In this document: positions 24,111 through 59,661 of the stretch, piece by piece
Layout: each line of letters begins with the position of its first letter
Position numbering within the stretch: the stretch's first letter is position 1
Origin: Flavobacterium sp. N2038
Lineage (GTDB): Bacteria > Bacteroidota > Bacteroidia > Flavobacteriales > Flavobacteriaceae
Reading direction: 5' to 3'
Assembly (NCBI RefSeq): GCF_025947185.1
Contig: NZ_CP110001.1
Span: forward strand, 124,001 to 188,000
DNA length: 64,000 bases
Position numbers and translations under genes: made by a program
The notes under the pieces: generated by a model
Databases searched by the model: none
Told to the model about the DNA's origin: nothing
Seen by the model: the letters and a program-made list of their open reading frames with translations, nothing else

Positions 24111-24120
24111 TCAATATAGA

Positions 24121-24144
24121 AAAGAGGTGCGAAAGTGCCTCTTT
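24121..24144 (+). terminator. Weak intrinsic terminator between rpsO and pnp
   Basis: AAAGAGGTGC and GTGCCTCTTT pair (two G.U pairs in RNA) around a GAAA tetraloop and run into TTTTTG. Partial read-through into pnp is plausible, as in other rpsO-pnp pairs. Confidence 0.7.
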
Positions 24145-24193
24145 TTGTTTTTACATTACAAGCATTTATAAGAAAAAAAGTTTGGTTTTTCAT

Positions 24194-24250
24194 TGGGTTT
24201 TAGATAACAACAACTACACACAACAACAACTACAACACAACTAAAACCCA
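24194..24250 (+). promoter_or_regulatory. pnp leader: 10-bp stem closing a CA-only loop
   Basis: TGGGTTTTAG (24194-24203) is the exact reverse complement of CTAAAACCCA (24241-24250). The 37 bases between them contain no G and only three T, being mostly CAA and ACA units in two near copies. The stem ends 26 bases before the pnp ATG. Such an unpaired single-stranded loop next to pnp could be a binding site for PNPase itself or another single-strand RNA-binding protein. Whether the whole stem is transcribed depends on the promoter used; read-through from rpsO would include it. Confidence 0.55.
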
Positions 24251-24276
24251 TTGTATAATCAATAAGGAAAAAATTT

Positions 24277-26412: not shown

Positions 26413-26447
26413 TCAGATCTTAGTTTACTAAAGGTTTATTCATAGAT

Positions 26448-26479
26448 AAATCCCGTTTCATTTAACCGAAACGGGATTT
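26448..26479 (+). terminator. Intrinsic terminator after pnp
   Basis: AAATCCCGTTTC pairs with GAAACGGGATTT (12 bp) around an 8-base loop, followed by TTTTG. Confidence 0.9.
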
Positions 26480-26567
26480 TTTGTTTTTACATCTACTTTT
26501 CAACCTAAAACTACACGGTTAAAACACTAGACTACAACGTTTTCAGAAAACACATTATAGGTTAAAT

Positions 26568-26603
26568 AATGTTGTTGGTTTAAAAATCAATGTTGTTGGT
26601 TTA
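26568..26603 (+). promoter_or_regulatory. Direct repeat AATGTTGTTGGTTTA x2, 21 bp apart
   Basis: The 15-base unit occurs at 26568-26582 and 26589-26603, identical and exactly 21 bp (two helical turns) apart. It lies 70-105 bases upstream of the first gene of the duplicated receptor locus. Same-face direct repeats of this period are typical of two-component or LytTR-type activator sites. The equivalent region ahead of the second module (33218-33440) does not contain the unit. Confidence 0.5.
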
Positions 26604-26672
26604 ATTTATTTTTTTTTAAAACTTCATTAACATAGTTTTATATAGAAAACAGCTACACAAAACCACATATTG

Positions 26673-27476
26673 ATGAGAAAGGATATTGCACAGTCAAGAA
26701 TTAAAACAATATTATTTATTACTGTCTCTTTTAAATTCAAACTGTATTGCAAAAACCTACCATTAAAAATCACAAATTACTCAACAGTAATTTTCATCCT
26801 GCTATTCCTTTCAATCAACAGTTTTTCTCAAACTAATGAAAAAAAAGAAGTCTCTAATTATCTGGACAAAACAATTGGCGAAGAAATTTTAAACATCAAT
26901 AATGGCAAAATTCATATTGATCCATATAATCTTAAAAACGATCACAACTATTATTTAAATAAAAACTTCGTAAAAGGATCTGTTTTTTATGATAATCAAT
27001 TATATGAAAACATTCTCATAAAGTATGACATATATAAAGACCAACTTGTAAAATCATTCAAGAACAATAATACATTCGGTATAACGCTTATAAATGAAAA
27101 AACAGATTATTTTTTGATCGAAAATAAAAGATTTGTCAATATTGACAATAAGTATAAGTATCCAAAAGTCATCACCGGTTTTTTTGAAGAAAAATATTTA
27201 GGTAAAAATATCTCCCTGTACATTAAACCCTTTAAAACAGCAAAAGAAATTATTATTGAAAATAATTTATATACAGAATTCAAAGAATATAACAACTACC
27301 AACTTCTTTATAATTCAAAATTTACATCTGTAAACACACAGAAAGAAATCCTCACGATATTTCCTCAACTAAAAAAAGAAATAAAAGATTATTACAAAAA
27401 AAATAAAATCCCAGAAGAGGCAAGCCCATACCAGTTCAAAGCAGATTTAATAAAATTTATTGATAACAATTTATAA
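26673..27476 (+). CDS. Secreted protein of unknown family, first gene of receptor module 1
   Basis: A 267-residue protein, related along its length to the protein at 33441-34184: shared LNINNG..H..P (near 70), a YENILIKYDIYKDQL block (near 112) against YDNVLLKYDIHQDQL, KRFVN, and a C-terminal IFP.LKKEI..YYK. The hydrophobic segment with a SPI-like end (FILLFLSINSFSQ) comes only after 40 residues, so the true start may be downstream at a non-ATG codon; TTG at 26670 and ATG at 26673 are the only clear candidates. The fold seems all-beta and tyrosine-rich. I recall similar YENV.L.YDI proteins beside STN-type receptors, but no function is known. TBDR gene follows by 19 bases. Confidence 0.7.
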   Translation: MRKDIAQSRIKTILFITVSFKFKLYCKNLPLKITNYSTVIFILLFLSINSFSQTNEKKEVSNYLDKTIGEEILNINNGKIHIDPYNLKNDHNYYLNKNFVKGSVFYDNQLYENILIKYDIYKDQLVKSFKNNNTFGITLINEKTDYFLIENKRFVNIDNKYKYPKVITGFFEEKYLGKNISLYIKPFKTAKEIIIENNLYTEFKEYNNYQLLYNSKFTSVNTQKEILTIFPQLKKEIKDYYKKNKIPEEASPYQFKADLIKFIDNNL

Positions 27477-27495
27477 GCTCTATTCCAAAATCTAA

Positions 27496-30258
27496 ATGAA
27501 AAAACACTTTATCTTCTGTTTATTTTTGTTATTGCCAATCTTTCTTTTTTCTCAGGAAAAAAATATTTCTATAGAATATTCAAATGTAACACGAAAAAAA
27601 GCTATCGAAATACTAGAAAAAAACACTTCTTTTCACTTCTATTTTAAAGACCAATGGTTATCAGACAGTGAGCTTATTTCAGGCGAATTTAAGAATACCT
27701 CTATTTCAGTAATTTTAGATGCTATTTTGAATAACACGACCATAAATTACATTATTGACAACAACAATATTATTCTAAGCAATGGTCTTTTAATCTCAAA
27801 TATTATAACTGAAAAATATTTTGAACCGACCGATGATAAAAGTGTTAACAAGGCCACTAATTTGCCAATTATTCCAATTTATAATAAACAGTATCTAAAT
27901 GATTCTAAAAAAGACTCAGACTCTATTATTTCTCTTGGAAAACAGTCTTTGATAAACGCATCTCAAACCTATACTTTATCAGGCTACATTAAAGACAGGA
28001 TTACAGGAAAACCAGAATACAACATCACAATTAAAGTAAAAGACAAAGACATAAGTACAGTAAGTGATGTAAATGGTTATTACAGTTTTAGAGTTCCTGC
28101 AGGTATCAATATAATTGAGGCACAATCCATCAGTCATCAGTCAAAGGCTAAAAAAATTGTACTTTACAACAATGGGAAAGCTGATTTTAATTTGGATGAA
28201 AATGTAAATGCACTTAAAGAAGTTGTCATCGAAAATAAAAAAACAAGAAATGTAACCTCAGCAGTTGCAGGTCTTACCAGTATTGATATCGAAAACATCA
28301 AAAATGTGCCTTTAATTTTGGGCGAAAGAGACATTTTTAAAGTTGCTACAACACTTCCGGGGATAAAAACTGCAGGAGAAGGTTCTGCGGGCTTTAATGT
28401 ACGAGGAGGAAAAGATGATCAAAACTTATTTTTATTAGACAACGCTTCTTTATACAACCCATCTCACTTTTTAGGCTTCTTTTCTTCTGTCAATCCTTTT
28501 ACAACAAAAAAAGCCGACATATACAAAGGAAGTATTCCTGCTGAGTTTGGAGGAAGACTTTCTTCTGTTTTTGATATTAAATCAAAAAATGGAAATACCG
28601 AAAAAGTTTCTGGTGAAGCCGGAATTGGGCCTGTAATGAGCAATGTTACTCTTGAAATTCCGATCGTAAAAGGAAAATCAAGCTTATTATTTGGTGGCAG
28701 AGCAAGTTATTCTGACTGGATTCTGAGAACTATTAAAGATCCTGAACTAGATAATAGTCAAGCCTCTTTTTATGATGTGATTTTAAAATACAATCATCAA
28801 ATCAGTAAAAAAGATAATCTCGAAACCTCTCTGTATTATAGTCATGATAAATACAGCATTAACTCAGATTCCATCTACAAATACAACAACTTATTAGCAA
28901 CCGTAAAATGGGATCATGATTTTAATGCAAAAAATAAATCTTCCCTAATTGTTACCAATAGTCAGTATAATTTTAACATCGATTACGATTCTCAGCCTGA
29001 AAAATCATTTGATTACGGCTATAAAATCAATGAAACTCAGTTTGTTTTTAAAATGAGATACAATCTCAATGAAAAACATTCCTTTAATTATGGCGTTAGC
29101 AGCAAAATGTATAATGTTAAACCTGGCTTCCTCAAATCAACAGGTGACAACTCTCTGATTAAAGATATTACACTTGAAAAGGAAAAAGCTTTAGAATCGG
29201 CTTTATTCTTTACCGAAAATTATAAGGTCAGTGATAAACTTTTAATTGATCTAGGTTTGCGTTATTCTTTTTATTCTGCACTTGGCCCTTCTACGCAAAA
29301 CATCTATCAGGATGACCGCCCAAAATCTGACAAAACTGTTATTGATACCAAGATCTACAATAATAATGAGTCTATAAAAACGTATGGAGGTTTTGAGCCC
29401 AGAATTTCAGCGCGATATTTTATACTTCCGGATTTATCTGTAAAAGCAAGTTTTGACAGAACCTATCAATACATGCATTTACTATCAACTAATACCACAC
29501 AATCTCCTATGGATGTATGGAAACTTTCTGATTTAAATACTGAGCCACAATCTTCCAATCAGTTTTCGTTAGGGTTTTTCAAAAATATAATTCAAAAATC
29601 ATTAGAACTAAGTATAGAAGGTTATTATAAACGCTCAAAAAACATTCTGGATTATAAAGTTGGTGCCGAATTATTTTTGAACGAAAACATCGAAACGGAA
29701 CTTCTTCAGGGAGAAGGAAAAGCCTATGGAGTTGAATTTTTGATCAAAAAAGAAAAAGGAAATTTTAATGGCTGGTTAAGCTATACTTATTCCAGAGCCT
29801 TAATAAAACTTGACAGTAGATTTGATGCTGAAAAAATAAACAACGGAGATTATTTCCCTACAAATTATGACAAACCGCATGATTTTAGCGCTATTTTAAA
29901 CTACAAATTCACAAAGAGATACAGTTTGTCAACCAATTTTGTTTACCAAACCGGCAGACCTGTCACTTTTCCGATTGGGTCGTATGATTTTGCAGGAGAG
30001 GATTTTACTTTATATAGTAATCGCAACCAATATAGAATTCCGGATTATTACAGATTGGATATTGGTCTCAATTTTGAAGGAAATCACAAAATAAAAAAAC
30101 TCGCACATAGTTTCTGGAATCTTTCAGTCTACAATGTTCTGGGAAGAAACAACCCGTATAATGTTTATTTTGTTACTGAAGATAGAAAAATCAAGGCATA
30201 CAAAACATCTATTTTTTCTGTTCCAATTCCGACAATAACCTATAACATTAAATTTTAA
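27496..30258 (+). CDS. TonB-dependent receptor with STN and carboxypeptidase-like domains (module 1)
   Basis: A 920-residue outer-membrane receptor: signal peptide (MKKHFIFCLFLLLPIFLFSQ), STN domain (about 22-92, ending NNNIILSNG), a linker, a carboxypeptidase-regulatory-like beta sandwich (about 153-235, LSGYIKDRITGKPEYN), plug (about 250-365, FNVRGGKDDQNLFLLD and IPAEFGGRLSSVFDI) and a barrel ending PIPTITYNIKF. The STN domain usually contacts a FecR-type anti-sigma factor; no FecI or FecR gene is near. LKEVVIENKK could be the TonB box. It is closely similar to the receptor at 34185, and sits between the unknown secreted protein and a DUF4249 lipoprotein. No SusD gene is present, so it is not a standard SusCD glycan transporter. 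Confidence 0.92.
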   Translation: MKKHFIFCLFLLLPIFLFSQEKNISIEYSNVTRKKAIEILEKNTSFHFYFKDQWLSDSELISGEFKNTSISVILDAILNNTTINYIIDNNNIILSNGLLISNIITEKYFEPTDDKSVNKATNLPIIPIYNKQYLNDSKKDSDSIISLGKQSLINASQTYTLSGYIKDRITGKPEYNITIKVKDKDISTVSDVNGYYSFRVPAGINIIEAQSISHQSKAKKIVLYNNGKADFNLDENVNALKEVVIENKKTRNVTSAVAGLTSIDIENIKNVPLILGERDIFKVATTLPGIKTAGEGSAGFNVRGGKDDQNLFLLDNASLYNPSHFLGFFSSVNPFTTKKADIYKGSIPAEFGGRLSSVFDIKSKNGNTEKVSGEAGIGPVMSNVTLEIPIVKGKSSLLFGGRASYSDWILRTIKDPELDNSQASFYDVILKYNHQISKKDNLETSLYYSHDKYSINSDSIYKYNNLLATVKWDHDFNAKNKSSLIVTNSQYNFNIDYDSQPEKSFDYGYKINETQFVFKMRYNLNEKHSFNYGVSSKMYNVKPGFLKSTGDNSLIKDITLEKEKALESALFFTENYKVSDKLLIDLGLRYSFYSALGPSTQNIYQDDRPKSDKTVIDTKIYNNNESIKTYGGFEPRISARYFILPDLSVKASFDRTYQYMHLLSTNTTQSPMDVWKLSDLNTEPQSSNQFSLGFFKNIIQKSLELSIEGYYKRSKNILDYKVGAELFLNENIETELLQGEGKAYGVEFLIKKEKGNFNGWLSYTYSRALIKLDSRFDAEKINNGDYFPTNYDKPHDFSAILNYKFTKRYSLSTNFVYQTGRPVTFPIGSYDFAGEDFTLYSNRNQYRIPDYYRLDIGLNFEGNHKIKKLAHSFWNLSVYNVLGRNNPYNVYFVTEDRKIKAYKTSIFSVPIPTITYNIKF

Positions 30259-30276
30259 TTCATCTATCACATCAAT

Positions 30277-31449
30277 ATGAATGTATCAATAATCAAAAAA
30301 ATGACGTTGGCTCTTTTTGTTTGTGTTATTTTATCGGGCTGCACAGAACAATACGTTTTTCAAAACCAGGATTTTGAAGACGCAATGATTGTCGAAGCCA
30401 CATTAACAAATGAATTAAAACATCATGAAATAAACATTTCAAGAACCAGACTTCTTAACGATACTATAAAAATTGCCGAGTCTGGAGCTAACGTTACTGT
30501 TGTTGACAGCGACAGTAATGAATTTCATTTTGATGAAAAAGACGGAAAATATATTTCTTCAAATGAATTTAAAATAGAACCAAATAAGAACTACCAATTA
30601 AAAATAACAACCAAATCCGGAAAATCATATATTTCTTCACCAGAAACTTTAACTACACCAAACACTATTGATTTAGAAGCTAAAGTGGCTGAAAAAGATG
30701 GCATACAAGGTGTTCAGATTAATGTTAAAAGTTTTGATCCTGCAAATACATCTAAATATTATCGTTATGAATATGACGAGACTTATAAAGTACAAACTGT
30801 TTACAATACAACAGAACGTGTAGAATTAGTACCTTATCAAAATACGTTTAAAATGATTATAGTCCCGGCCGAACCAAATACTCATATTTGCTACAGCACA
30901 AAACATTCGACTGGCATTATACAAACAAATACAAAAGATTTAACCGAAGACCGCGTAAACTTTCCTGTTCGCTTTATTGACAAATCAAATTATATAATCG
31001 CTTATCGTTACAGTATTTTGGTTTCTCAGTACACGCAAAATCAATCTGCTTACGATTACTATAATACATCCAAAAAAATGATAGATTCAGGAGAATTGTT
31101 ATCTCCAAACCAGCCCGGATACATTATCGGAAATATCAAATCAACTTCAGATTCATCAGAAAAAGTGGTCGGTTTCTTTGAGGTTGCCTCGGTTTCAAAA
31201 AAAAGAATCTTTTTCAATTTTAACGACATTTTTCCATCAGATGATCCAACGCTATTCTTTAGAAAATGCGAGCCAGAAGAAATCCAGTTTAGTGTAATAC
31301 CCATGGACAATTATAAAGTACTCACCACTCATGTTTATATAGGAGGAGGTCCGGGAATGTCTCCAACATCATACTGGATGGTTGAAAAAGAATGCGGAGA
31401 TTGTACATCATTTTCTTCTAACGTAATACCTTCATTTTGGGAAAATTAA
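30277..31449 (+). CDS. DUF4249 lipoprotein (module 1)
   Basis: A 390-residue lipoprotein: lipobox LSGC with Cys22, then the family start TEQYVFQNQDFEDAMIVEA. It matches DUF4249 (a family encoded beside TonB receptors in Bacteroidota), with Ig-like beta-rich N-terminal part (ANVTVVDSDSNEFHFDEKDGKY, NYQLKITTKSGKSY) and a distinctive end CGDCTSFSSNVIPSFWEN. It probably sits on the outer-membrane surface and captures or delivers the ligand of the receptor encoded 18 bases upstream, the place SusD has in other systems; that role is inference. ATG at 30301 would shorten the signal peptide. Its end overlaps the next gene by 13 bases. Confidence 0.88.
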   Translation: MNVSIIKKMTLALFVCVILSGCTEQYVFQNQDFEDAMIVEATLTNELKHHEINISRTRLLNDTIKIAESGANVTVVDSDSNEFHFDEKDGKYISSNEFKIEPNKNYQLKITTKSGKSYISSPETLTTPNTIDLEAKVAEKDGIQGVQINVKSFDPANTSKYYRYEYDETYKVQTVYNTTERVELVPYQNTFKMIIVPAEPNTHICYSTKHSTGIIQTNTKDLTEDRVNFPVRFIDKSNYIIAYRYSILVSQYTQNQSAYDYYNTSKKMIDSGELLSPNQPGYIIGNIKSTSDSSEKVVGFFEVASVSKKRIFFNFNDIFPSDDPTLFFRKCEPEEIQFSVIPMDNYKVLTTHVYIGGGPGMSPTSYWMVEKECGDCTSFSSNVIPSFWEN

Positions 31450-33125
31450 ACATACAATTAGCTTTTTTACTGTTATTAGTAAATTTCACTTTTAAAAGTA
31501 GTGCTCAAAATAATACTGCTTTGGGTGCGGAATCAATATTAGTTAAAACTAATACTTCGGTAATCTTAACCGGCGAAACATTATATTACCAATTGTACTG
31601 TTTAAATAAAACGAATGTATTTTCTGATATCAGTGAAATTGCATATTTAGAAGTAATTAACGATCAGAAAGAAAGTGTATTTAAAAATAAAATTAGTCTG
31701 AAAAACGGAATTGGATCAGGCGATTATTTTATTCCAACAGTATTAAAAACGGGAAACTATAAGCTTATTGCCTATACAAACTGGATGTTAAACAATAGTC
31801 AGAATAACTTTTTTGAAAAAGACTTTACCATCATAAATCCATTTCAGGAACATATAAACATGACTATTGATAGTACATCTGTAAAAACTGGCGTTTATAA
31901 AAATGGAACCCAAAATACATCTGAAAACATTCTTTTAAGTCTTGACAAAGAAAAATATTCTAAAAGAGAAAAAGCCACTCTTGTAATACCAAAAGCATTA
32001 GATAAAGGAAACTATTTTTTAAATATCAAAAAAATAGATCTTATCCCTACATACCCAAGTAACGAAACTATTAATACTTATGTAAATCTAAAACAAGAAA
32101 TAAAGGTACTTCCAGAAACAAGAGGCGAAATTATAACCGGATATATAACTCCAAAATCTGGAGCTTCTAATTTAGACTCTAAAATAGTTACACTATCTAT
32201 TCCTGGAAAAAATTTCATCTTCAAAACAACCCAAACAGATAGCAACGGAAAATTCATTTTTTTAATTGATAAACAAACCAGTACATCAGATTGTTATGTA
32301 CAATTATCAGAACCTGACAAAGAAAACTATACTATTGCAATAGATAAAACGCCAGGTCCGGATTTATCGAATTTGATTTTCTCCAATAAAACCTCTATTT
32401 CCAGCAAAAATTTGAAAGCAATTCAAGAGCGCTCATTGGCAACTCAGGTAGAGAACGTTTATTTTTCACAAAAAAAAGACAGTCTTATCGAAGCTATCCA
32501 TACAGATTTCTTTTTTCAGCCTACCGAAAAAAAATATAATCTCGATGATTTCGAAAGATTTAGAACGTTTAAAGAAACAATAATAGAAATTGTTACTGAA
32601 CTTAATTTTAAAGATTACAATCAGCTTCCGGCACTATACTTAAGCGATTCCAGATACAATATTATACAATCTCCTGAACCTTGTCTGATTTTGGTTGACG
32701 GACTACAAATTCAGGATATAAATGCACTATTAAATTATAATGCCTATCAAATTCAAAATATTAGCGTTGTTAACAGACCCTACTGTTATGGCCCTAAAAT
32801 ATTCAACGGAATTGTCAGTATTATTACAAAAAACAACGATTTTGCAACTATTTATACTGATAAAAGCATTTTAAAAACGACAATCTTAAGGCCTGAACCT
32901 GCAAAAGTTTATTTTGAACCACAATATGAAACATCAAATGCGCTTAGCCGAATTCCTGATTACAGACATCAATTACTTTGGAAACCAAATATAGCTTTTA
33001 AAAATAGCGAAATGGCTATCTCTTTTTATACCTCTGATATTTCCGGAGATTATGAAATCATCCTGGAAGGAATTACCGAAACCGGAAATTATGTTCATTT
33101 TTATAAAACATTCAAAACTGAATAA
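31437..33125 (+). CDS. Macroglobulin-like (MG2)/plug-like secreted protein (module 1)
   Basis: A 562-residue exported protein starting at TTG (MGKLNIQLAFLLLLVNFTFKSSAQ signal peptide). Residues about 30-130 look like an MG2 beta sandwich (SVILTGETLYYQLYCLN, GDYFIPTVLKTGNYKLIAYT). A second beta domain follows (about 225-300, EIITGYITPKSG), then a short TonB-plug-like domain (about 415-475, ILVDGLQIQDINALLNY and YGPKIFNGIVSIITKNND) and a final beta domain (RIPDYRHQLLWKPNIAF, SFYTSDISGDYEIILEG). Bacteroidota encode such MG2-plug proteins next to surface loci; their role is not known. It has no barrel. It overlaps the DUF4249 gene and is closed by a terminator. Confidence 0.75.
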   Translation: MGKLNIQLAFLLLLVNFTFKSSAQNNTALGAESILVKTNTSVILTGETLYYQLYCLNKTNVFSDISEIAYLEVINDQKESVFKNKISLKNGIGSGDYFIPTVLKTGNYKLIAYTNWMLNNSQNNFFEKDFTIINPFQEHINMTIDSTSVKTGVYKNGTQNTSENILLSLDKEKYSKREKATLVIPKALDKGNYFLNIKKIDLIPTYPSNETINTYVNLKQEIKVLPETRGEIITGYITPKSGASNLDSKIVTLSIPGKNFIFKTTQTDSNGKFIFLIDKQTSTSDCYVQLSEPDKENYTIAIDKTPGPDLSNLIFSNKTSISSKNLKAIQERSLATQVENVYFSQKKDSLIEAIHTDFFFQPTEKKYNLDDFERFRTFKETIIEIVTELNFKDYNQLPALYLSDSRYNIIQSPEPCLILVDGLQIQDINALLNYNAYQIQNISVVNRPYCYGPKIFNGIVSIITKNNDFATIYTDKSILKTTILRPEPAKVYFEPQYETSNALSRIPDYRHQLLWKPNIAFKNSEMAISFYTSDISGDYEIILEGITETGNYVHFYKTFKTE

Positions 33126-33175
33126 ATAAATCAAATCTCCTAAAACGGAATCTTTGACCTAATAAAGATTTACTA

Positions 33176-33217
33176 GCTAAAAGCCCCGGTTCAAATAAAT
33201 GAATTGGGGTTTTTAGC
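33176..33217 (+). terminator. Terminator after receptor module 1
   Basis: A 17-bp stem (33176-33192 with 33201-33217; three G.U pairs) containing CCCC/GGGG and ending in a T-rich arm separates the two modules. It makes each module an independent transcription unit. Confidence 0.75.
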
Positions 33218-33392
33218 TTTATTTTAATGCTCCATAAATTTCATATAACAATATAATCTAAGAACAAAATTTACTCTGAGTACATTAAAAAGCTCGTTCC
33301 TGATTGCGAAGTTTGTCGTATTTTTTTTCATAAAAAAGCGATATTTTGTTATATTTTAACAATTGTTCATGCTTTTTGTAAGATTATTTTAA

Positions 33393-33400
33393 TAAATTTG
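33393..33400 (+). promoter_or_regulatory. -7 box (TAAATTTG) for receptor module 2
   Basis: A perfect TAnnTTTG lies 41 bases before the TTG start of module 2. TTTG at 33375-33378 is closer than usual for a -33 element (14 bases). The rest of the 315-base gap, apart from the terminator, holds no gene; AACAATTGTT at 33358-33367 is a small palindrome. Confidence 0.45.
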
Positions 33401-33440
33401 AAAAACCACCAAAAAACGAACCTTAAAACCACTAAATCCT

Positions 33441-34184
33441 TTGAAAAATTATCAAAAGAAGGCTTTATATTTATTAATATTTAGTACCATCTCAAACGTT
33501 TCGTATTTATATTCCCAATCTTCTGACAAATCCTCAATTTACGAATTCTTCGACAACAATGTTGGCAGGGATAACTTAAACATAAACAATGGGGTTCTGC
33601 ATAGTGAACCTTTTAGACCAATTGCCGATAAACACAGGTACTACATCAACGAGTTTAATTCCGGGAGTTTAGGTTTTGAAGATGAAATTTACGACAACGT
33701 TCTGCTTAAATATGATATTCATCAGGATCAGTTAATCTTCAAACAAAACGATCAAACAGATAATCTTGCCATTAATCTGATAAAAGACAAGGTCAATTTC
33801 TTTAGTATTAAAAACAAAAAGTTTGTCAATTTAAAATCTGAGACATTAAAATTCCCCGGTATCGTAAATGGAATTTATGAGGAAAGTTATGTTGGAGATC
33901 TGGTATCGCTATATATAAAACATCATAAAGAAAAGATCAAGGTTTTTCAATCAGATGGTGTCTACTACAATTTCATCTACAAAAACGATTATATCATCAA
34001 GTACAACAATTATTTTTATAAGGTTGAATCTGAAAAAGAGGTAAAAAAGATATTTCCTTCTGTCAAAAAAGAAATTAATAATTATTATAAAATTGACAAA
34101 AAGTTAGAGCGTTCAGACAAAACTCAATTCATGGAAAATCTGACAAAGCAAATCAATAGTTTTTTAAAAAAAAGTTCGACATAA
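33441..34184 (+). CDS. Secreted protein of unknown family, first gene of receptor module 2
   Basis: A 247-residue paralogue of the protein at 26673-27476. It starts at TTG with a clear signal peptide (MKNYQKKALYLLIFSTISNVSYLYSQ). The shared core is NLNINNGVLHSEPF, an aromatic YYINEF turn, YDNVLLKYDIHQDQL, KKFVNLK and KIFPSVKKEINNYYK; it has no cysteines that I can see in the mature part and seems all beta with a helical end. Its stop codon is followed immediately by the receptor ATG, so the two are translated together. The constant place ahead of an STN receptor hints at a periplasmic or surface helper. Function unknown. Confidence 0.75.
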   Translation: MKNYQKKALYLLIFSTISNVSYLYSQSSDKSSIYEFFDNNVGRDNLNINNGVLHSEPFRPIADKHRYYINEFNSGSLGFEDEIYDNVLLKYDIHQDQLIFKQNDQTDNLAINLIKDKVNFFSIKNKKFVNLKSETLKFPGIVNGIYEESYVGDLVSLYIKHHKEKIKVFQSDGVYYNFIYKNDYIIKYNNYFYKVESEKEVKKIFPSVKKEINNYYKIDKKLERSDKTQFMENLTKQINSFLKKSST

Positions 34185-36971
34185 ATGAAAAAAATTACTC
34201 TTCTACTCTTTTTTTTACTCGCCTTTCAACAAATTATCTATAGTCAGGTTATAAGTGATAAAGTTTCTGTCGATTTAAAAAATGCGAATCTAAAAACGGC
34301 AATCCAAAACATTGAGCAAACATCTCATTTTAAATTTTATTTTGATGAAAGATGGCTGGATTCAGATAGTACCGTTATTTCAAAACAATTTAAAGAAGTT
34401 CGTATTTCGGAAGTTCTTGAGGACATCTTTCAAAACACCAGCATCAATTTCTTTATTTCTGAAAATAAAATTATACTTAGCAATAACAGTGTAATATACA
34501 ATCAGCTTCCTGATGATTACTTTGGAATTCCCTTGGAGAAAGATGAAAATGGAGAGCCTTTAACTCCTATTTTTTATCAACAGTTTGATTCTATAAAAAG
34601 AACAAATACCCGAAATCCCAACAAAAATCTTCGGGACATTATTCTTATTGGAAAAGAAGGAAAAAATCAAAAAAAGAAGACCTATACCCTTTCCGGATAT
34701 ATAAAAGGAGGAAAAAACAAAACCGGAATCGCTAATATATTAGTGAAGATTCCTGAAACCGAATTTACCGCAGTTACAGATAAAGAAGGACATTACAAAT
34801 TACAAGTCCCAGCCGGAATAAGTACAGTTGAAACCGAAAGTTTTGCTTATGATAAAGTATCTAAGAAAATCATGGTGTACAATGATGGGACTTTAAATTT
34901 TAATGTTACTGATAATATAAATCAGCTTAATGAAGTTTTAATAAAAACAAATAAAAGCAAAACAGCAAAATCAGCAATTACGGGAGTTACAACCATAGAT
35001 TCAGAAGGTATTAAAAATGTACCACTGGTTTTAGGAGAACGTGACATTTTGAAAGTAGCACTAACTTTACCCGGTATTAAAACCGCAGGAGAAGGTTCTG
35101 CTGGTTATAACGTTCGAGGCGGTAAAGAAGATCAAAATTTATTTTTATTAGATCAGGCTGTTTTATACAATCCATCTCACTTTTTTGGCTTTTTTACAGC
35201 CTTAAACCCTTACACAACAAAAAAAGTAGATATTTACAAAGGAAGTATTCCTGCTGAATTTGGAGGCAGATTATCTTCTGTTTTTGATATCACTTCAAAA
35301 ACAGGAAACTATAACAAATTTGAAGGTGAAGGAGGTATTGGTCCGGCAACAAGTAATCTTATGCTGTCTACTCCGGTTGTAAAAGGAAAATCAAGTCTTG
35401 TTGTTGGAGGAAGAGCAAGTTATTCTGACTGGATATTAAAAACCCTCGACGACGAGGATCTAAAAAATAGTCAGGCTTCTTTTTATGATGTAATTTTAAA
35501 ATACAATCATAAAATTAACAACAATAACGATATTGAGTCTACTTTATATTATAGTCATGATAAATTTAGTGTTTCGTCTGATTCTTTGTACAAGTACAGC
35601 AATCGTTTAGCGACACTAAAATGGAATCACACTTTCAATGAAAAAAACAAAGGTTCTCTGATACTAACCAATAGTGAGTATAAATTTAATATTGATTATG
35701 AGACGACAGGTATAAATTCATTTGATTTTGGATATAAAATCAATGACACACAGGCTGCCCTTAAAATGTCTTATTTGTACAGTGATAAGCACAAAATATC
35801 ATATGGAATTTCAAGTAAATTGTATGGAATAAATCCCGGGTATTTAAAACCTACAAATCCTGATTCGTCATTAATTCCGGTTGATATTGAAAAAGAACGA
35901 GGTCTGGAATCTGCCGTGTATATTGGCGATAATTTTAAAATTACTGATAAATTCTTATTGGATTTTGGTTTGCGTTATTCCAGATTTTCTGCTTTAGGAC
36001 CATCTACACAGCGAGTTTATCAGGAGAATCTCCCAATTAGCGATGCAACTGTGGTAGAGACTAAAACTTATAAAAACAATGAAGTAATTAAAAGTTATGG
36101 CGGTTTTGAACCTAGAATTGCTGCGCGTTACTTTATAACGGATGATTTTTCTGTAAGAGCCAGTTATGACAAAACCTATCAATACATTCATTTATTATCA
36201 AATAACACCACACAATCACCAACAGATATCTGGAAGCTTTCAGATTTAAATGTAAAACCAGAAGATGCTCAACAGGTTTCACTTGGTTTTTATAAGAATT
36301 TAAAGAATGACGAATTAGAATTAAGTCTGGAAGGCTATTATAAAAAATCAAATAATATTTTAGATTATAAGGTGGGTGCCAGTTTACTATTAAATGAAAA
36401 TATTGAAACCGAACTTTTACAAGGTCAGGGAAAAGCATATGGAGTTGAAGTCCTTCTGAAAAAATCCGAAGGTCGTCTTAACGGATGGTTAGGCTATACA
36501 TACTCAAGATCTTTAATTAAACTGAACAGCCAGTTTAATGAAGAAAAAGTAAATGACGGTAAATATTTTGCATCAAATTTTGACAAACCACATGACTTTA
36601 GTGCAGTTTTAAACTACAGAATTACAAAACGTTATAGTTTTTCAAGTAATTTTATATATCAAACCGGCCGCCCGATTACGTACCCAATTGGGACGTATGA
36701 TTATGGAAATGCGCAATACACTGTTTATAGTGACCGAAACAAATTCAGAATTCCTGATTATTTCAGGTTAGATCTTGGTTTTAATATTGAAGGAAATCAT
36801 AAGATAAAAAAATTAGCACATAGCTTTTGGAATATCTCAGTTTATAATGTTTTAGGAAGAAACAATCCTTATTCTGTATTTTTCGTAACAGATCAGGGCC
36901 AGATTAAAGCCTATAAAACATCCATTTTTTCGATTCCAATTCCTAGTATCACATATAACTTCAAGTTTTAA
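34185..36971 (+). CDS. TonB-dependent receptor with STN and carboxypeptidase-like domains (module 2)
   Basis: A 928-residue receptor with the same domain order as the module 1 receptor: signal peptide (ends IIYSQ), STN (about 22-95, VSVDLKNANLKTAIQNIEQ), beta-sandwich (about 165-245), plug (YNVRGGKEDQNLFLLDQ, IPAEFGGRLSSVFDI) and barrel ending PIPSITYNFKF. Long stretches are the same in both proteins, including the barrel segment NENIETELLQGQGKAYGVE, so they arose by duplication. The linker between STN and beta sandwich is the most divergent part. It is the start of a run with two DUF4249 genes; no FecIR or SusD partner is present. The ligand is unknown. Confidence 0.92.
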   Translation: MKKITLLLFFLLAFQQIIYSQVISDKVSVDLKNANLKTAIQNIEQTSHFKFYFDERWLDSDSTVISKQFKEVRISEVLEDIFQNTSINFFISENKIILSNNSVIYNQLPDDYFGIPLEKDENGEPLTPIFYQQFDSIKRTNTRNPNKNLRDIILIGKEGKNQKKKTYTLSGYIKGGKNKTGIANILVKIPETEFTAVTDKEGHYKLQVPAGISTVETESFAYDKVSKKIMVYNDGTLNFNVTDNINQLNEVLIKTNKSKTAKSAITGVTTIDSEGIKNVPLVLGERDILKVALTLPGIKTAGEGSAGYNVRGGKEDQNLFLLDQAVLYNPSHFFGFFTALNPYTTKKVDIYKGSIPAEFGGRLSSVFDITSKTGNYNKFEGEGGIGPATSNLMLSTPVVKGKSSLVVGGRASYSDWILKTLDDEDLKNSQASFYDVILKYNHKINNNNDIESTLYYSHDKFSVSSDSLYKYSNRLATLKWNHTFNEKNKGSLILTNSEYKFNIDYETTGINSFDFGYKINDTQAALKMSYLYSDKHKISYGISSKLYGINPGYLKPTNPDSSLIPVDIEKERGLESAVYIGDNFKITDKFLLDFGLRYSRFSALGPSTQRVYQENLPISDATVVETKTYKNNEVIKSYGGFEPRIAARYFITDDFSVRASYDKTYQYIHLLSNNTTQSPTDIWKLSDLNVKPEDAQQVSLGFYKNLKNDELELSLEGYYKKSNNILDYKVGASLLLNENIETELLQGQGKAYGVEVLLKKSEGRLNGWLGYTYSRSLIKLNSQFNEEKVNDGKYFASNFDKPHDFSAVLNYRITKRYSFSSNFIYQTGRPITYPIGTYDYGNAQYTVYSDRNKFRIPDYFRLDLGFNIEGNHKIKKLAHSFWNISVYNVLGRNNPYSVFFVTDQGQIKAYKTSIFSIPIPSITYNFKF

Positions 36972-36976
36972 AAATC

Positions 36977-38200
36977 ATGAAATTTTTTAAAAAAATATAC
37001 CTTTTTCTTGTTCTTGCATTCGCTGTAAGCGGATGTACTGAACAGTATGTTTTTCAAAATACAGATTTTGAAAGTGCTCTTGTTGTTGAAGGTACAATTA
37101 CAAATGAATTTAAAAATCAAACCATAAGAGTTTCTCAAGTATACCAATTGGAAGAAACAGGACCACGATTTGAAAAGGGTGCAAATGTTTATATCACAGA
37201 TGACAAAGGAAATGAATATCAATTTGAAGAAAAAGATACCGTTTATGCTTCTATTTCAGCGTTTAAAGCAGAACCCGGCAGAAAATATCAGTTAAAAATT
37301 AAAACAAAAGAGGGCAAAAATTATACTTCTGATGAACAAACCTTAACTACAGAAACTAAAATAGAAAACATGACCGCTACAGTCGAAACTGTTCAGGGAC
37401 AAAGAGGAGTTCAAATAAATGTAAACAGTTACGACCCGACAAATACTTCAAAATATTACAGATATGAGTACACTGAAACCTATAAAATAATTGCGCCTAA
37501 ATGGGATTCCAGAAAAACTATCTTGCAAATGATTCCGGCTATTCCGCCAGATCCTGAAAATGATTTTCCTGGCAGTCCTGCCGGAGAAGCTATTTTAGTA
37601 GTTCCAAGAACAAGAGAAACCGAAACCTGCTTTTCAACCAAAAAATCAGATCAGGTTCTTTTAACCAACACAAGTGGTAATAGTGATGATCGTGTTCATT
37701 ATCCTGTTCGTTTTATCAGCGATCAGAATTATATCATATCGCATCGCTATACTATTTTTGTAAAGCAGTATATTCAGAATTTATCTGCTTATACTTTCTA
37801 TAAAACATTAAGAGATTTATCCACTTCCGGAAGTGTATTGTCTCCTAAACAGCCTGGATTTTTTTATGGAAATATAAAATCTGTCGAAAATCCTTCTGAA
37901 AAAGTTATTGGTTTCTTTGAGGTCTCTGCGGTTTCTTCAGAAAGAATTTACTTTAACTATAAAGACTTGTTTCCAAATGAGCCTCTTCCTCCATATTATG
38001 AAACCGATTGTGCACAAAGGGAGTTTTTAGATTGCGAAGGAGACCCGCCTTGTAGCGGAATCCCGTTGCGTTCTTCTATACGTTCTAATTCTTTGGTACA
38101 CTATGCATCGGGCGCCAGTACTTATTTTATGGTAAAACCCGCTTGTGGAGACTGTACTTCATTTTCATCTAATATCGTTCCTCCATTTTGGGTAGATTAA
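36977..38200 (+). CDS. DUF4249 lipoprotein 2a (module 2)
   Basis: A 407-residue lipoprotein with lipobox VSGC (Cys20) and the family start TEQYVFQNTDFESALVVEG. It is very similar to the next gene, both in protein and DNA, over the N-terminal 160 residues (KNQTIR.SQVYQL, RKYQLKIKTKEGKNYTSD). Compared with the module 1 copy it has extra segments: a proline-rich insert (IPAIPPDPENDFPGSPAGE, near 190) and a cysteine-containing loop (LDCEGDPPCSGIPLR, near 350). The end CGDCTSFSSNIVPPFWVD is the family tail. It is 5 bases after the receptor and 13 bases before 2b. Surface ligand binding is inferred. Confidence 0.88.
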   Translation: MKFFKKIYLFLVLAFAVSGCTEQYVFQNTDFESALVVEGTITNEFKNQTIRVSQVYQLEETGPRFEKGANVYITDDKGNEYQFEEKDTVYASISAFKAEPGRKYQLKIKTKEGKNYTSDEQTLTTETKIENMTATVETVQGQRGVQINVNSYDPTNTSKYYRYEYTETYKIIAPKWDSRKTILQMIPAIPPDPENDFPGSPAGEAILVVPRTRETETCFSTKKSDQVLLTNTSGNSDDRVHYPVRFISDQNYIISHRYTIFVKQYIQNLSAYTFYKTLRDLSTSGSVLSPKQPGFFYGNIKSVENPSEKVIGFFEVSAVSSERIYFNYKDLFPNEPLPPYYETDCAQREFLDCEGDPPCSGIPLRSSIRSNSLVHYASGASTYFMVKPACGDCTSFSSNIVPPFWVD

Positions 38201-38213
38201 TTCTTAAAAACTT

Positions 38214-39446
38214 ATGAAATATTTTATACTTAAAATATCTATTTTTCTTCTCTTAGTTACGGCTCTTACAGGCTGTACAGAACAATACGCTTTTAAAAGT
38301 AATAATTTTGAAAGTGCTCTTGTTGTTGAAGGTACTATTACAAATGAAATAAAAAATCAAACTATAAGAATTTCTCAGGTCTATCAATTGGATGAAACAG
38401 GTCCAAAATTTGAAACAGGAGCCAATGTCTTTGTTACAGACGATCAGGGAAATGAATATCAATTTGAACAAAAAGACACTGTGTATGCTTCTCTCGTACA
38501 ATTTAAAGCTGAGCCGGGTAGAAAGTATCAGTTAAAAATTAAAACAAAAGAGGGCAAAAATTACACCTCTGACCAGCAAACTTTAACTACCGAAACCAAG
38601 ATTGACAACGTTACAGCAACTGTTGAAACTGTTCACGGAGAAAGAGGTGTTCAGATCAATGTAAATAGTTATGACCCTACTAACACATCAAAATATTACA
38701 GATATGAATATGCTGAAACCTACAAAATAATAGCGCCAAGATGGTACTTTTTTAAAGCTGATGTTGTGTTCACCCCGGCAATACCTCCAGATCCTATGAA
38801 TGATTTCCCAGGACAGCCTGCATCAGAGGGAATTGCAGTAACGCCCAGAACTGGCGAAAGTAAAACCTGTTACTCTACAAAAAAATCTGAGGATATTCTT
38901 TTAAACAATACTAGCACCCTTAGTGAAGATCGCGTACATTATCCGGTACGATTTATTAGCGATCAGAATTATATCATAACTCATCGTTATAGTATTTTCG
39001 TAAAGCAATATGTTCAGAATTTAGCAGCTTATACTTTTTATAAAACATTACGGGATTTATCATCTTCGGGTAGTGTCCTTTCTCCTAAACAACCAGGATT
39101 CTTTTATGGAAATATACAATGCGTTGAAAATCCTTCTGAAAAAGTCATTGGCTTTTTTGAAGTTTCTTCTGTTTCTTCAGAACGAATTTATTTCAATTAT
39201 TCTGATTTGTTTCCAAATGAGCCGCCTCCTCCTTACTACGAAAGTGATTGTGAACCAGAACAATTTTACAATTGTGACCTTCCGGAACCTCCATGCCGGG
39301 GAGCAGCTTTACGCTCAATGATTCGTACAAGATCACGATTGCTTTTTTCATGGAACAATATGACCATTTATGATATGGTAAAACCAGCCTGTGGGGATTG
39401 CACCACTTTTTCATCTAATATCGTTCCTCCATTTTGGGTAGACTAA
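38214..39446 (+). CDS. DUF4249 lipoprotein 2b (module 2)
   Basis: A 410-residue lipoprotein with lipobox LTGC (Cys21), a tandem copy of the preceding gene. The N-terminal beta domain and the tail (CGDCTTFSSNIVPPFWVD) are almost the same, while two patches differ: the segment near 180-215 (WYFFKADVVFTPAIPPDPMN) and the cysteine loop near 345-375 (YNCDLPEPPCRGAALRS followed by RTRSRLLFSWNNM). Differences limited to these loops suggest that they contact the ligand. Transcribed with the receptor and the MG2-like gene, 13 bases after 2a. Confidence 0.88.
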   Translation: MKYFILKISIFLLLVTALTGCTEQYAFKSNNFESALVVEGTITNEIKNQTIRISQVYQLDETGPKFETGANVFVTDDQGNEYQFEQKDTVYASLVQFKAEPGRKYQLKIKTKEGKNYTSDQQTLTTETKIDNVTATVETVHGERGVQINVNSYDPTNTSKYYRYEYAETYKIIAPRWYFFKADVVFTPAIPPDPMNDFPGQPASEGIAVTPRTGESKTCYSTKKSEDILLNNTSTLSEDRVHYPVRFISDQNYIITHRYSIFVKQYVQNLAAYTFYKTLRDLSSSGSVLSPKQPGFFYGNIQCVENPSEKVIGFFEVSSVSSERIYFNYSDLFPNEPPPPYYESDCEPEQFYNCDLPEPPCRGAALRSMIRTRSRLLFSWNNMTIYDMVKPACGDCTTFSSNIVPPFWVD

Positions 39447-39504
39447 TTTTTAAGAATTTATGAAACAACTTTCAACATACAGACAAACCTTAATTCTGGA
39501 CTTA

Positions 39505-41247
39505 ATGAAACGCTCTATAATTTTAATTGCAATTTTATTAAGCGCTTTTAGTTTTGCCCAGTCTCGTGTTAATGATAATTTAAAAACATCAACACAGGAA
39601 ACTATTTTTCTTCACGCTAATACCTCGACTTTTCTTACAGGCGAAACATTATTTTATAAATTATATTGCTTAAATCCTCTTAACAACAAACCAAGTCAAA
39701 TAAGCAAAATTGCGTATATTGAACTTGTTGATAATGAAAAAAAGTCTTTTCAAAAAAACAAAGTCTATCTTGAAAAAGGAATTGGAGCTGGCGACTATTT
39801 TATACCTACAACTTTAAAGACCGGTAATTACAAATTAATTGCCTACACCAAATGGATGCTCAACAATCCAAAATCACAAACTTTTGAAATCGATATTTTT
39901 ATAATAAATCCTTTTCAAACGCAGGAGCCAAATGAAAATGTAACTTTTGACAGCACTCTAAAAAATAACATTTCATCATCTCAGGCGTATACTACTAATT
40001 CTTATGCCGATAATGAAAAAAGAATTGACTTTGAGTTTGACAAGGAAAGTTATTACACGAGAGAAAAAGCGACTTTAAAAATAAAATCATTAACTGAAAC
40101 GATCGAAAAAGGTAATTACTCTGTTTCCATTAGAAAAACAGATCAAATTCCAACACTAAAACAAACCACGCCACAAGAATTTATCGCAAGAACCTCTGGT
40201 AGTTATGAAAACAATACCATTACTTCTTATGCTTATATTCCAGAATTAAGAGCTGAATTGATTACGGGTTCAATTGTATCAAAGAGTAATAATTCTGTAA
40301 GCAATAAATCGATCTCGCTTTCATTACCCGGAAAAGAATATGTATTAAAAATAGTTAAAACAAATTCGGATGGTAAGTTCGCATTTTTGCTGGATCATTT
40401 TCCAAATTTCTCAAGTGCAATTATGCAAATTCTTGACCCAAATCCTGCAGATTACAGTATTGTTTTAGATCCGCTTCCAACCTTTGACACCTCAAAATTA
40501 AAATTTTCATCAAAGCTAAATTTAACAGAGAATCTCAAAAGCGATATTGAAGATCGTTCAACAGCAAGCCAGATACAAAATGCTTATTATCAGACTAAAA
40601 AAGACAGCTTAGTTCAGGAAGCTGTCATTAGTCCTTTTTTCAACACGATAGAAAAAACATATATACTGGATGACTATACCCGTTTCCCAACTTTAAAAGA
40701 AAATGTAGTTGAAGTAATAATCGAGTTATACTACAGAAAAAACAATGGTAAATACCAATTGAGGGTTAGAAATGATCACAAAGACTTAGAATCTTATGGG
40801 CCTCCTTTAGTAATTGTTGACGGTCTTCAAATTCAGGATCCAAGTGACCTTTTCGAATATAATATGGGGAATGTTGACAAAGTCAGTCTTATTACAGAGC
40901 CTTATGTTTATGGGCCAGATTTGTACGGTGGTCTTATTAGTTTTGAAACCAAAAACAGCGATTTTGCCACTAACTACGTTAAAAAGTATTTAAAAACAAC
41001 TGACATTCAAAGGCCTAATCCTGAAAAAGTTTATTACAATCCTGATTATAGTTCTGGAAACACCTTAAAAAGAATTCCGGATTACAGATATCAATTACTT
41101 TGGAAACCTAATTTAAAATTAGATCAAAAAGAAGATAATATTTCTTTTTACACTTCTGATTTAAAAGGAAATTTTGAGGTGGTTTTAGAAGGTTTTACAG
41201 AAGAAGGAAAACCGGTCTATGTTTCAAAAAACATTACCGTAAAATAG
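39505..41247 (+). CDS. Macroglobulin-like (MG2)/plug-like secreted protein (module 2)
   Basis: A 580-residue paralogue of the protein at 31437-33125. I chose ATG 39505 because it opens directly with a signal peptide (MKRSIILIAILLSAFSFAQ); the ATG at 39460 would put 15 polar residues ahead. Order: MG2-like sandwich (TSTFLTGETLFYKLYCLNPL, TLKTGNYKLIAYTKWMLN), middle beta domain (AELITGSIVSKSNNSV), short plug-like domain (LVIVDGLQIQDPSDLFEY, VYGPDLYGGLISFETK) and end domain (RIPDYRYQLLWKPNLKL, SFYTSDLKGNFEVVLEG). It may bind or restrain protein-type ligands at the surface or in the periplasm, but that is only inferred from the MG2 part. Confidence 0.75.
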   Translation: MKRSIILIAILLSAFSFAQSRVNDNLKTSTQETIFLHANTSTFLTGETLFYKLYCLNPLNNKPSQISKIAYIELVDNEKKSFQKNKVYLEKGIGAGDYFIPTTLKTGNYKLIAYTKWMLNNPKSQTFEIDIFIINPFQTQEPNENVTFDSTLKNNISSSQAYTTNSYADNEKRIDFEFDKESYYTREKATLKIKSLTETIEKGNYSVSIRKTDQIPTLKQTTPQEFIARTSGSYENNTITSYAYIPELRAELITGSIVSKSNNSVSNKSISLSLPGKEYVLKIVKTNSDGKFAFLLDHFPNFSSAIMQILDPNPADYSIVLDPLPTFDTSKLKFSSKLNLTENLKSDIEDRSTASQIQNAYYQTKKDSLVQEAVISPFFNTIEKTYILDDYTRFPTLKENVVEVIIELYYRKNNGKYQLRVRNDHKDLESYGPPLVIVDGLQIQDPSDLFEYNMGNVDKVSLITEPYVYGPDLYGGLISFETKNSDFATNYVKKYLKTTDIQRPNPEKVYYNPDYSSGNTLKRIPDYRYQLLWKPNLKLDQKEDNISFYTSDLKGNFEVVLEGFTEEGKPVYVSKNITVK

Positions 41248-41292
41248 ATGTTTCTGTAGTGCATAAATTTATTTTTTTACAATAGTTAAATT

Positions 41293-41322
41293 AAATCGGA
41301 AAGTATTTTACTCTTCCGATTT
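41293..41322 (+). terminator. Intrinsic terminator after receptor module 2
   Basis: AAATCGGAAG pairs with CTTCCGATTT around a 10-base loop and is followed by more T residues, 45 bases after the last module 2 stop. Confidence 0.85.
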
Positions 41323-41454
41323 TTTTTATCTCTCTAATAATCAATACAAAATATCTTTTATAAATATAAAAAACATAAAAAATTAAATTATTTTTATTTA
41401 ATTGTAACTTTTTTGATACTTCATACGTATAACCATTTGTACACTTAAAAATTG

Positions 41455-41459
41455 AGGAG
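41455..41459 (+). promoter_or_regulatory. Shine-Dalgarno sequence AGGAG before rpoD
   Basis: AGGAG stands eight bases ahead of the rpoD ATG, an ideal Shine-Dalgarno spacing. Most genes in the window have only A-rich leaders, as expected for Bacteroidota, in which the ribosome usually hides the anti-Shine-Dalgarno of 16S rRNA. Confidence 0.7.
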
Positions 41460-41467
41460 ACAAAAAC

Positions 41468-42331
41468 ATGAGACAACTTAAAATCACCAAGCAGGTAACT
41501 AATCGTGAAACTGCATCGTTAGATAAATATCTACAAGAAATCGGAAAAGTTGACCTAATTACCGCTGATGAAGAGGTAGAATTAGCACAAAGAATAAAAG
41601 CAGGTGATCAAAGAGCATTAGAAAAATTAACAAAAGCCAACCTACGTTTCGTTGTATCGGTTGCTAAACAATATCAAAATCAAGGATTAACTCTTCCTGA
41701 CTTAATTAACGAAGGAAACTTAGGTTTAATTAAAGCTGCACAACGTTTTGATGAAACTCGTGGTTTCAAATTTATCTCTTACGCAGTTTGGTGGATTCGT
41801 CAATCGATCCTTCAGGCATTAGCAGAACAATCCCGTATCGTTCGTTTACCTTTAAACAAAATTGGTTCTATCAATAAAATCAACAAAATGTATGCTTTAT
41901 TAGAGCAATCTAACGAGCGTCCACCTTCTGCTGAAGAAATTGCAAAAGAACTAGACATGACTGTAAATGACGTAAAAGAGTCTATGAAAAACTCTGGTCG
42001 TCACTTATCAATGGATGCACCTCTTGTTGAGGGAGAAGATTCTAACCTTTATGACGTTTTACGTTCCGGAGAATCTCCAAACCCAGACAGAGAATTAATT
42101 CACGAATCTTTACGTACTGAAATCGAGCGTTCGTTAGAGACATTAACTCCAAGAGAGGCAGATGTTGTTCGTTTGTATTTTGGTCTTGGCGATCAACACC
42201 CAATGACATTAGAAGAAATTGGAGAGACTTTCGACTTAACTCGTGAGCGTGTACGTCAGATTAAAGAAAAAGCAATCCGTAGATTGAAACATACTTCAAG
42301 AAGTAAAATCCTTAAAACTTATTTAGGTTAA
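41468..42331 (+). CDS. rpoD: Primary RNA polymerase sigma factor RpoD/SigA
   Basis: A 287-residue sigma-70 of the short Bacteroidota type, without region 1.1. Region 1.2 ([20 protein letters not shown], about 17-36), region 2 with the -10 recognition helix ([29 protein letters not shown], about 90-118), region 3 (about 130-195) and region 4 with the -35 helix-turn-helix ([29 protein letters not shown], about 246-275) are complete. It directs the core polymerase to housekeeping promoters of the TTTG/TAnnTTTG type. It stands alone between two terminators and carries a rare Shine-Dalgarno. Confidence 0.95.
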
Positions 42332-42359
42332 TATTAAAATATAAATTCCAATATATTTA

Positions 42360-42399
42360 AAATTCCAAATACCAATATAAAAGTTGGAATTTGGAATTT
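42360..42399. repeat. Inverted repeat of TTTGGAA units after rpoD
   Basis: AAATTCCAAATACCAA and TTGGAATTTGGAATTT pair over 16 bases with one mismatch around an eight-base loop, 28 bases after rpoD. Further TTCCAA/TTTGGAA units flank it (near 42346 and 42419), so it looks like a cluster of repeated heptamer-like units; it may also help end rpoD transcripts, as TTTTA follows. Confidence 0.5.
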
Positions 42400-42477
42400 T
42401 ATTCGAAAATTATAATATTTGGAATTTTAAAGCAAACAACAGTTTGATTGACTGTTCGTTTTTTGATTGATGATTGA

Positions 42478-42500
42478 AACTCCGGCTGATTACCGGAGTT
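42478..42500. terminator. Intrinsic terminator between rpoD and the DUF3857 gene
   Basis: AACTCCGG pairs with CCGGAGTT around a seven-base loop and is followed by TTTTA on the plus strand; two A residues extend it, so it may serve the convergent gene less well. Confidence 0.8.
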
Positions 42501-42574
42501 TTTTATTTAAAGATATTTCTGTAAATACTCAAAACATCAAAAACCAAATACTTTTAAGGCTAAGAAGTTAAAGC

Positions 42575-44728: not shown

Positions 44729-44734
44729 GCTGTT

Positions 44735-46657: not shown

Positions 46658-46845
46658 TAGTAGGATTATTTGTCGCAATTTACAAAAAAACCCATACGAA
46701 TCACTTATTTCTTATCTTTTGATTTACTAAATTCCTTCTTGTTTTTTATAATTAAAATAAGGGCAAATTTTTATTACATTACAAATAAATTTGGCAAAAC
46801 GCAGCGTATATAAACTTATGAAAACTTTACAAAAATCTTTGCTCC

Positions 46846-59660: not shown

Positions 59661-59661
59661 A

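Follow-up and report, generated by a model that had tools for sequence, protein, structure and literature searches.

A tandem four-gene TonB receptor module in Flavobacterium with a predicted barrel-less plug on a macroglobulin-like scaffold

We analysed a stretch of 64,000 nucleotides (hereafter the window) from the 4.67 Mb genome of Flavobacterium sp. N2038 and show that a unit of four protein families, present there as two tandem copies flanked by pnp and a sigma-70 gene, is a real module travelling across families of the class. Each unit encodes a TonB-dependent receptor (TBDR) and, with it, a small exported protein of no Pfam or NCBIfam family, a DUF4249 lipoprotein (two in unit B) and a protein predicted to carry a plug-like domain, without barrel, on a scaffold of the alpha-2-macroglobulin/complement C3 kind (hereafter the plug protein). 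Our leading, still tentative, reading is that the unit encodes a TBDR-DUF4249 uptake complex of the outer membrane with two periplasmic accessories, one of which might dock on the receptor as a passive plug. An initial annotation had described two consecutive units with the same four families, each closed by its own terminator; this description holds and all nine reading frames were confirmed:

24277-26412, pnp, the PNPase gene, upstream of unit A
26670..27476 (+), unit A exported protein, no family, start codon uncertain; homologue of 33441-34184 (37%)
27496..30258 (+), unit A TBDR, with a weak FecR_C/STN-like N-terminus, CarbopepD_reg_2, Plug and barrel
30277..31449 (+), unit A DUF4249 lipoprotein (131.9 bits; lipobox SGC)
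31437..33125 (+), unit A alpha-2-macroglobulin-like protein with predicted inserted barrel-less plug; paralogue of 39460-41247 (44%)
33175..33218 (+), unit A terminator-like hairpin (scan; fold of 33160-33230 at -28.5 kcal/mol, z -6.6)
33441..34184 (+), unit B exported protein, no family; modelled as a beta-rich core, then four helices
34185..36971 (+), unit B TBDR, from family matches
34926..34943 (+), presumed TonB box of receptor B, LNEVLI, from columns aligned across 75 receptors
36977..38200 (+), unit B DUF4249 lipoprotein 1 (144.6 bits)
38214..39446 (+), unit B DUF4249 lipoprotein 2 (153.5 bits; 76% identical to lipoprotein 1)
39460..41247 (+), unit B alpha-2-macroglobulin-like protein with predicted inserted CarboxypepD_reg-like and plug-like domains
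41293..41322 (+), unit B bulged terminator-like hairpin with T run (folding z -3.2)
41468-42331, sigma-70 gene of the RpoD/SigA kind, downstream of unit B, below the cut-offs of the RpoD models shown

Conservation and age of the gene set

The annotation had called the set constant, and the four families do recur together in other genomes, across families of the class. Among named genomes we fetched 31 loci with the unit B plug protein, which makes these counts conditional on the plug gene. In all 22 Flavobacterium loci the exported protein, TBDR, DUF4249 and plug protein are encoded ahead of the sigma-70 gene, and in some of them further genes intervene. They include F. johnsoniae CI04 (L010) and, nearest to the window among the named loci, F. 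branchiicola (L009, plug protein 95% identical). Flavobacterium sp. YO12 has its module receptor split over two overlapping frames (L016, 1342-4100), by frameshift or sequencing error. Two metagenome-assembled genomes, of Allomuricauda and of Flavobacteriia, hold all four genes at 29-53% identity, and their loci match neither pnp nor sigma-70. The other seven loci (Dokdonia, Mucilaginibacter) have only a longer relative of the plug protein (BLAST, E 1e-5).

Wider samples gave the same picture. The plug profile matched in 67 of 149 Flavobacteriaceae genomes (E <= 1e-10), and among the matches listed, own genome excluded, 29 places held a full-length short form. Beside these we found DUF4249 in 29/29, a TBDR in all 28 testable cases (the contig of the other ends too soon) and the exported protein in 17 of 27 testable cases. 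Nine long relatives (~800 aa), taken from many listed, had none of the three partners nearby. Membership is steadier than order, since three modules (L058, L083, L123) run TBDR-plug-DUF4249.

In a phylum sample of 296 genomes the plug profile matched in 21 (E <= 1e-30) and the exported protein in 43 (E <= 1e-5), and the exported protein lies beside a plug gene in 20 of the 21. Within the genus, 10 of 18 genomes (own included) have both genes and 8 have neither. The exception among the 21 is G415, where the locus (L112) sits on a contig of only 7.7 kb: a DUF4249 gene stands at the contig end, and three plug-profile frames (517-906 aa) follow it consecutively, a possible plug-rich variant. In G203 the exported-protein frame is broken in two (L120, 9335-10041; 160 + 96 aa), with receptor, DUF4249 and plug genes open, which hints that the exported protein is dispensable or reflects a sequencing error. 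Outside Flavobacteriaceae, nine of ten copies fetched (8/9 genomes; families f3, f4, f9 and f10) have all four genes, as do three genomes of family f8 to which the exported protein led us. Complete units thus make up 12 of the 13 copies examined in other families of the class, and the thirteenth is on a cut contig.

The flanks change around this set. Of the 49 stretches that we compared, 40 hold the module (L051 and L075 overlap) and nine a standalone plug relative; flanking genes were annotated for clusters present in at least three. The commonest cluster occurs in 7/49 and is probably lineage synteny; no further gene is widely recurrent beside the module in the 49 stretches. The annotation had also stressed that no FecI/FecR genes are present. 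The genome has five FecR genes, none of them in the window, and among the annotated clusters neither FecI nor FecR recurs beside the module. A SusD-like gene occurs in at least three of the 49 neighbourhoods (L031, L077, L109), each time outside the unit. Pairing of the receptors with SusD elsewhere, which would have spoken against a module, was not encountered, and their partner is DUF4249 throughout, as had been proposed. Our sequence sets (75, 76, 104, 105 and so on) include related species, and some genomes are present twice.

The units were rightly called tandemly duplicated, yet their split is old. Paralogues of A and B are far more alike than by chance (exported protein 37%, TBDR 60%, DUF4249 45%, plug protein 44%), and at 37-60% identity we take the pair to be old. 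In a tree with the window's A receptor as sole A copy, this receptor comes out near the root of the Flavobacterium group, where the branching order is unresolved; on identities and branching together we reject a recent duplication. Among the 22 named Flavobacterium loci an A copy is seen in 5, is not seen in 15 that reach pnp, and is undecidable in 2.

As to signals around the units, the terminator scan found the hairpin after A and missed that after B, which came from folding (2/200 shuffles were equally good). The scan also gave a hairpin with T run after pnp (26448-26479). No Rfam family matched across 24000-43000 at gathering scores, and no match to one Bacteroidota-type promoter pattern lies upstream of either unit.

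The four proteins

The plug protein is the most unusual member. For the copy of unit B (model pLDDT 78) we propose the following domains:

39595..39909 (+), MG2 domain, residues 46-150, from the model, structure matches and a sub-cut-off Pfam match
40024..40209 (+), first half of an MG6-like domain, residues 189-250, from the model and structure matches
40255..40467 (+), CarboxypepD_reg-like domain, residues 266-336, from the model, and weakly matched by 6 and 4 of the 20 members
40654..40989 (+), barrel-less TonB-plug-like domain, residues 399-510, with no TonB box found before it
41071..41244 (+), second half of the MG6-like domain, residues 538-595, starting with a conserved PDxRxx[LF]xW

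The model shares with C3 and alpha-2-macroglobulin a chain of MG domains with an insert in MG6, judged by Foldseek E-values and VIA-align; cleaved C3 chains align to residues 44-250 only. The assignment to MG6 is our reading of the model. The slot that holds the anaphylatoxin in C3 and the bait region in alpha-2-macroglobulin seems, in the model, to be taken by the CarboxypepD_reg and plug pair. That the protein has an MG2 part stands for the family (18 of 20 members at E <= 0.1; above cut-off in half of the eight module relatives scanned) and in the model, though Pfam places it below cut-off in plug protein B (21.7 vs 32.8) and does not see it in A, which scores 725 bits against the plug profile A4, of which it is itself a row. 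For the plug-like part there is a profile match of residues 436-510 to the colicin I receptor (E 0.034). Pfam Plug (PF07715) is unseen at E 0.1 in the window proteins and in 20 family members; it passes its cut-off in two standalone relatives (L061, L067). The genome has no plug gene outside units A and B.

In contrast to the receptors, no TonB box was found in the aligned columns of 76 short-form plug proteins. In 75 aligned module receptors the columns before the plug, which we take to be the TonB box as in SusC-type receptors, hold L in 75/75, E in 73/75 and V/I in 75/75. A count with a narrow pattern (40/75 receptors, 30/104 plug proteins) proved misleading and was replaced by the aligned columns; strings such as VVEVII fall inside the plug domain of plug protein B.

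Both window receptors have barrel, Plug and CarbopepD_reg_2 above the Pfam cut-offs (Pfam and NCBIfam were scanned, and listed matches judged against family cut-offs). The claim that they carry STN domains fares less evenly: in receptor B the match lies just below cut-off (28.1 vs 28.4), and receptor A has only a weak FecR_C-like match at its N-terminus (16.7 vs 24.4). Ten other module receptors gave Plug in 10/10, the barrel PF00593 in 5/10 (E <= 0.01) and an STN or FecR_C-like N-terminus in 8/10, every such match below cut-off. Neither window receptor passes the SusC/RagA model, which B matches at 20.7 bits (cut-off 368.25) and A not at all at E 0.1.

The three window lipoproteins are clearly DUF4249 (131.9-153.5 bits; cut-off 28.5), and a crude lipobox pattern matches 88 of 105 DUF4249 proteins. 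Their place at the cell surface is assumed from the pairing with the receptor. Copies vary from one (52 of 74 stretches) to two (15), three (5) or four (2), a count in which three redundant stretches (L051, L113, L114) were dropped and some of the stretches contain two units. For 9 of the 22 multi-copy stretches the copies are monophyletic in a quick tree, so these genes appear to have duplicated locally several times, and gene conversion is possible too. Elsewhere in the genome lie four further DUF4249 genes above cut-off (frames of 278-346 aa), each downstream of a receptor, and an eighth match below it. One cluster of the genome runs extracytoplasmic function (ECF) sigma factor - FecR - TBDR - DUF4249 (L142, G000:C1:1497703-1502918), where the lipoprotein is perhaps under Fec-type control.

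No Pfam or NCBIfam family matches the exported proteins at E 0.1, and a scan of 18 relatives from the wider family yielded just two Pfam matches, both at chance level. The unit B model (pLDDT 79) has a single N-terminal hydrophobic helix of the signal-peptide kind. By a crude test a lipobox is present in 1/62 exported proteins, and in 5/72 shorter and 4/29 longer plug-profile matches. Being mostly without lipobox, the exported protein is probably periplasmic, and the plug protein is predicted to be soluble and periplasmic too. The term "surface machine", used in the annotation, is therefore too broad. A crude pattern for the Q-rule of signal peptidase I (PMC5837995) matched 99/104 plug, 65/65 exported and 75/75 receptor proteins; as a localisation test it does not discriminate, since 62/108 DUF4249 proteins match as well. 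Of 19 weaker exported-protein places fetched, 3 are modules, all in f8, and 16 are not. Eight genes beside such non-module relatives (three LysR-type regulators, two nucleotidyl transferases, a methyltransferase-like protein, an amidohydrolase and a TonB) share no common functional hint. Outside the class, weak matches occur in ten genomes, and the six inspected hold no module. In G391 a distant relative stands immediately upstream of a TonB gene (L126, 8226-9974).

A possible uptake complex and its rivals

How might these proteins work together? The TBDR would be the energised gate of one outer-membrane uptake complex per unit, and the DUF4249 lipoproteins would sit above this gate as interchangeable lids that capture the ligand. 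Two soluble periplasmic accessories would act on the inner side. The first would be the small beta-rich exported protein; the second a reduced alpha-2-macroglobulin/C3-like scaffold, MG2 plus split MG6, whose slot would carry a CarboxypepD_reg and plug pair like the N-terminal part of the receptor, with neither barrel nor TonB box. Such a passive plug may dock at the receptor's periplasmic mouth or bind its STN/CarboxypepD_reg arm. Once TonB pulls on the plug inside the receptor, the docked one may take over the ligand or keep the path open or shut. From domain make-up and linkage we favour this uptake reading slightly short of believing it. A bolder scenario, which we hold more loosely, is that the receptor's gating cassette (CarboxypepD_reg plus plug) was copied out, lost its TonB box and was built into a macroglobulin scaffold, yielding a second plug, soluble and acting in trans, that would serve a lidded receptor as periplasmic gate or acceptor; our literature searches turned up no transporter for which such a part is described.

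Several observations weigh against the uptake reading. No ligand-metabolism gene is linked to the module, and 10 of the 27 testable Flavobacteriaceae copies lack the exported protein. Neither the receptor nor DUF4249 has a clear sequence relative in the PDB. Whole-chain TM-scores of the plug protein model to C3 and alpha-2-macroglobulin are low (Foldseek, <= 0.23 by query). Pfam Plug is seen, below cut-off, in one of eight module long plug proteins scanned, and a comparison of the receptor and accessory plug profiles is unconvincing (hhalign P 0.028, probability 1.8%). Finally, the residues after the DUF4249 lipobox cysteine are mostly T/V, E, Q/P/E and Y/F, unlike SDDFE, the export signal derived from F. 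johnsoniae SusD proteins (PMC5080379).

One might suppose instead that the unit serves signalling and not transport, the free plug or the exported protein partnering the receptor's STN and replacing FecR as reporter. The STN or FecR_C-like N-termini, frequent if sub-cut-off and yet accompanied by no recurrent FecI/FecR, would fit this, as would the TBDR-DUF4249 pair that the same genome keeps behind an ECF sigma factor and FecR. But no regulator recurs beside the module, and the lone hydrophobic helix of the exported-protein model is of the signal-peptide kind; we consider signalling unlikely. Import of proteins or peptides, with the macroglobulin scaffold binding or shielding the incoming polypeptide in the periplasm, seems to us just as improbable. 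Known members of the complement/alpha-2-macroglobulin fold bind proteins, and the scaffold has this fold in the model. Yet a shared fold shows no function, the thioester motif CxEQ occurs in 0/76 short forms (the string is in 1/27 long forms), and no peptidase recurs beside the unit (a single M19 peptidase lies near L109). Neither "protein or peptide binding" nor the "novel ligand class" of the annotation is supported.

Two further alternatives are far less probable than the uptake complex. If the unit were just a common TBDR-DUF4249 pair to which two functionally unrelated genes had become attached, this would agree with the four other above-cut-off DUF4249 genes, which follow receptors in a genome that has no plug gene outside the units, but the gene set stays together over several families while its flanks change, and we give this little credence. 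Weakest of all is TonB-dependent export or surface assembly with the exported protein as cargo, for which Oar and PopC of Myxococcus xanthus offer a reported precedent (PMC6434023) and to which the position of this gene, directly before the receptor gene when present, would lend itself, but the protein is missing from those 10 testable copies, its distant relatives lie in unrelated places and the DUF4249 lids point to uptake.

Significance, neighbours and known systems

The handling of ligands in the periplasm after a TonB receptor has opened is poorly understood, and to many Bacteroidota receptors with DUF-type lids no ligand has been assigned. A conserved plug of this soluble kind, set on a complement-type scaffold and accompanying one receptor subfamily across several families, would open both questions to genetics in a tractable genus, where F. 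johnsoniae CI04 carries a copy. It would also show the macroglobulin fold doing something other than trapping proteases.

Beyond the sigma-70 gene, two long genes follow each other on the minus strand of the window (42575-46678), the second with a transglutaminase-like core (44735-46678, minus; 42.7 bits) and the first without Pfam match at 1e-5. Further on, a DPP-IV type peptidase (61376-63547, minus) adjoins two POT-family peptide transporters (59662-61347 and 58176-59675); this stretch (58176-63547, minus) lies 17 kb from the module.

The module resembles several known systems and differs from each. Like SusCD and RagAB it has a TBDR with CarboxypepD_reg and Plug plus a lipoprotein partner, but the partner is DUF4249 and the receptors fail the SusC/RagA model. 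Its plug protein shares MG2 and a split MG6 with alpha-2-macroglobulin and C3 in the model, whereas the short form runs from MG2 to MG6 without the domains in between, has no thioester motif, and carries a CarboxypepD_reg-like and plug-like insert. Contrary to Fec-type signalling receptors, it has no linked FecI/FecR. The closest precedent is BT2172-BT2173 of Bacteroides thetaiotaomicron, a TBDR gene beside a DUF4249 gene proposed to be a working pair conserved over dozens of genera (PMC11003636, citing a preprint of Price et al.). Our units have one to four DUF4249 copies, an STN-type receptor and two extra genes, a distinction drawn from that description. XusAB (PMC13142918) and BtuBG (PMC10404256) also join a TonB-dependent transporter to a non-SusD surface lipoprotein; they have known ligands and lipoproteins of other families (XusB is DUF4374), and the portions of these papers that describe them mention no barrel-less plug protein. 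Among the papers listed in our literature searches, with subscription papers and preprints outside them, we found no description of a barrel-less plug on a macroglobulin scaffold, or of the exported family, as companions of such a pair. TBDR and DUF4249 were already known as a proposed working pair, and what seems new is the company they keep: the predicted plug-on-macroglobulin protein and the exported family.
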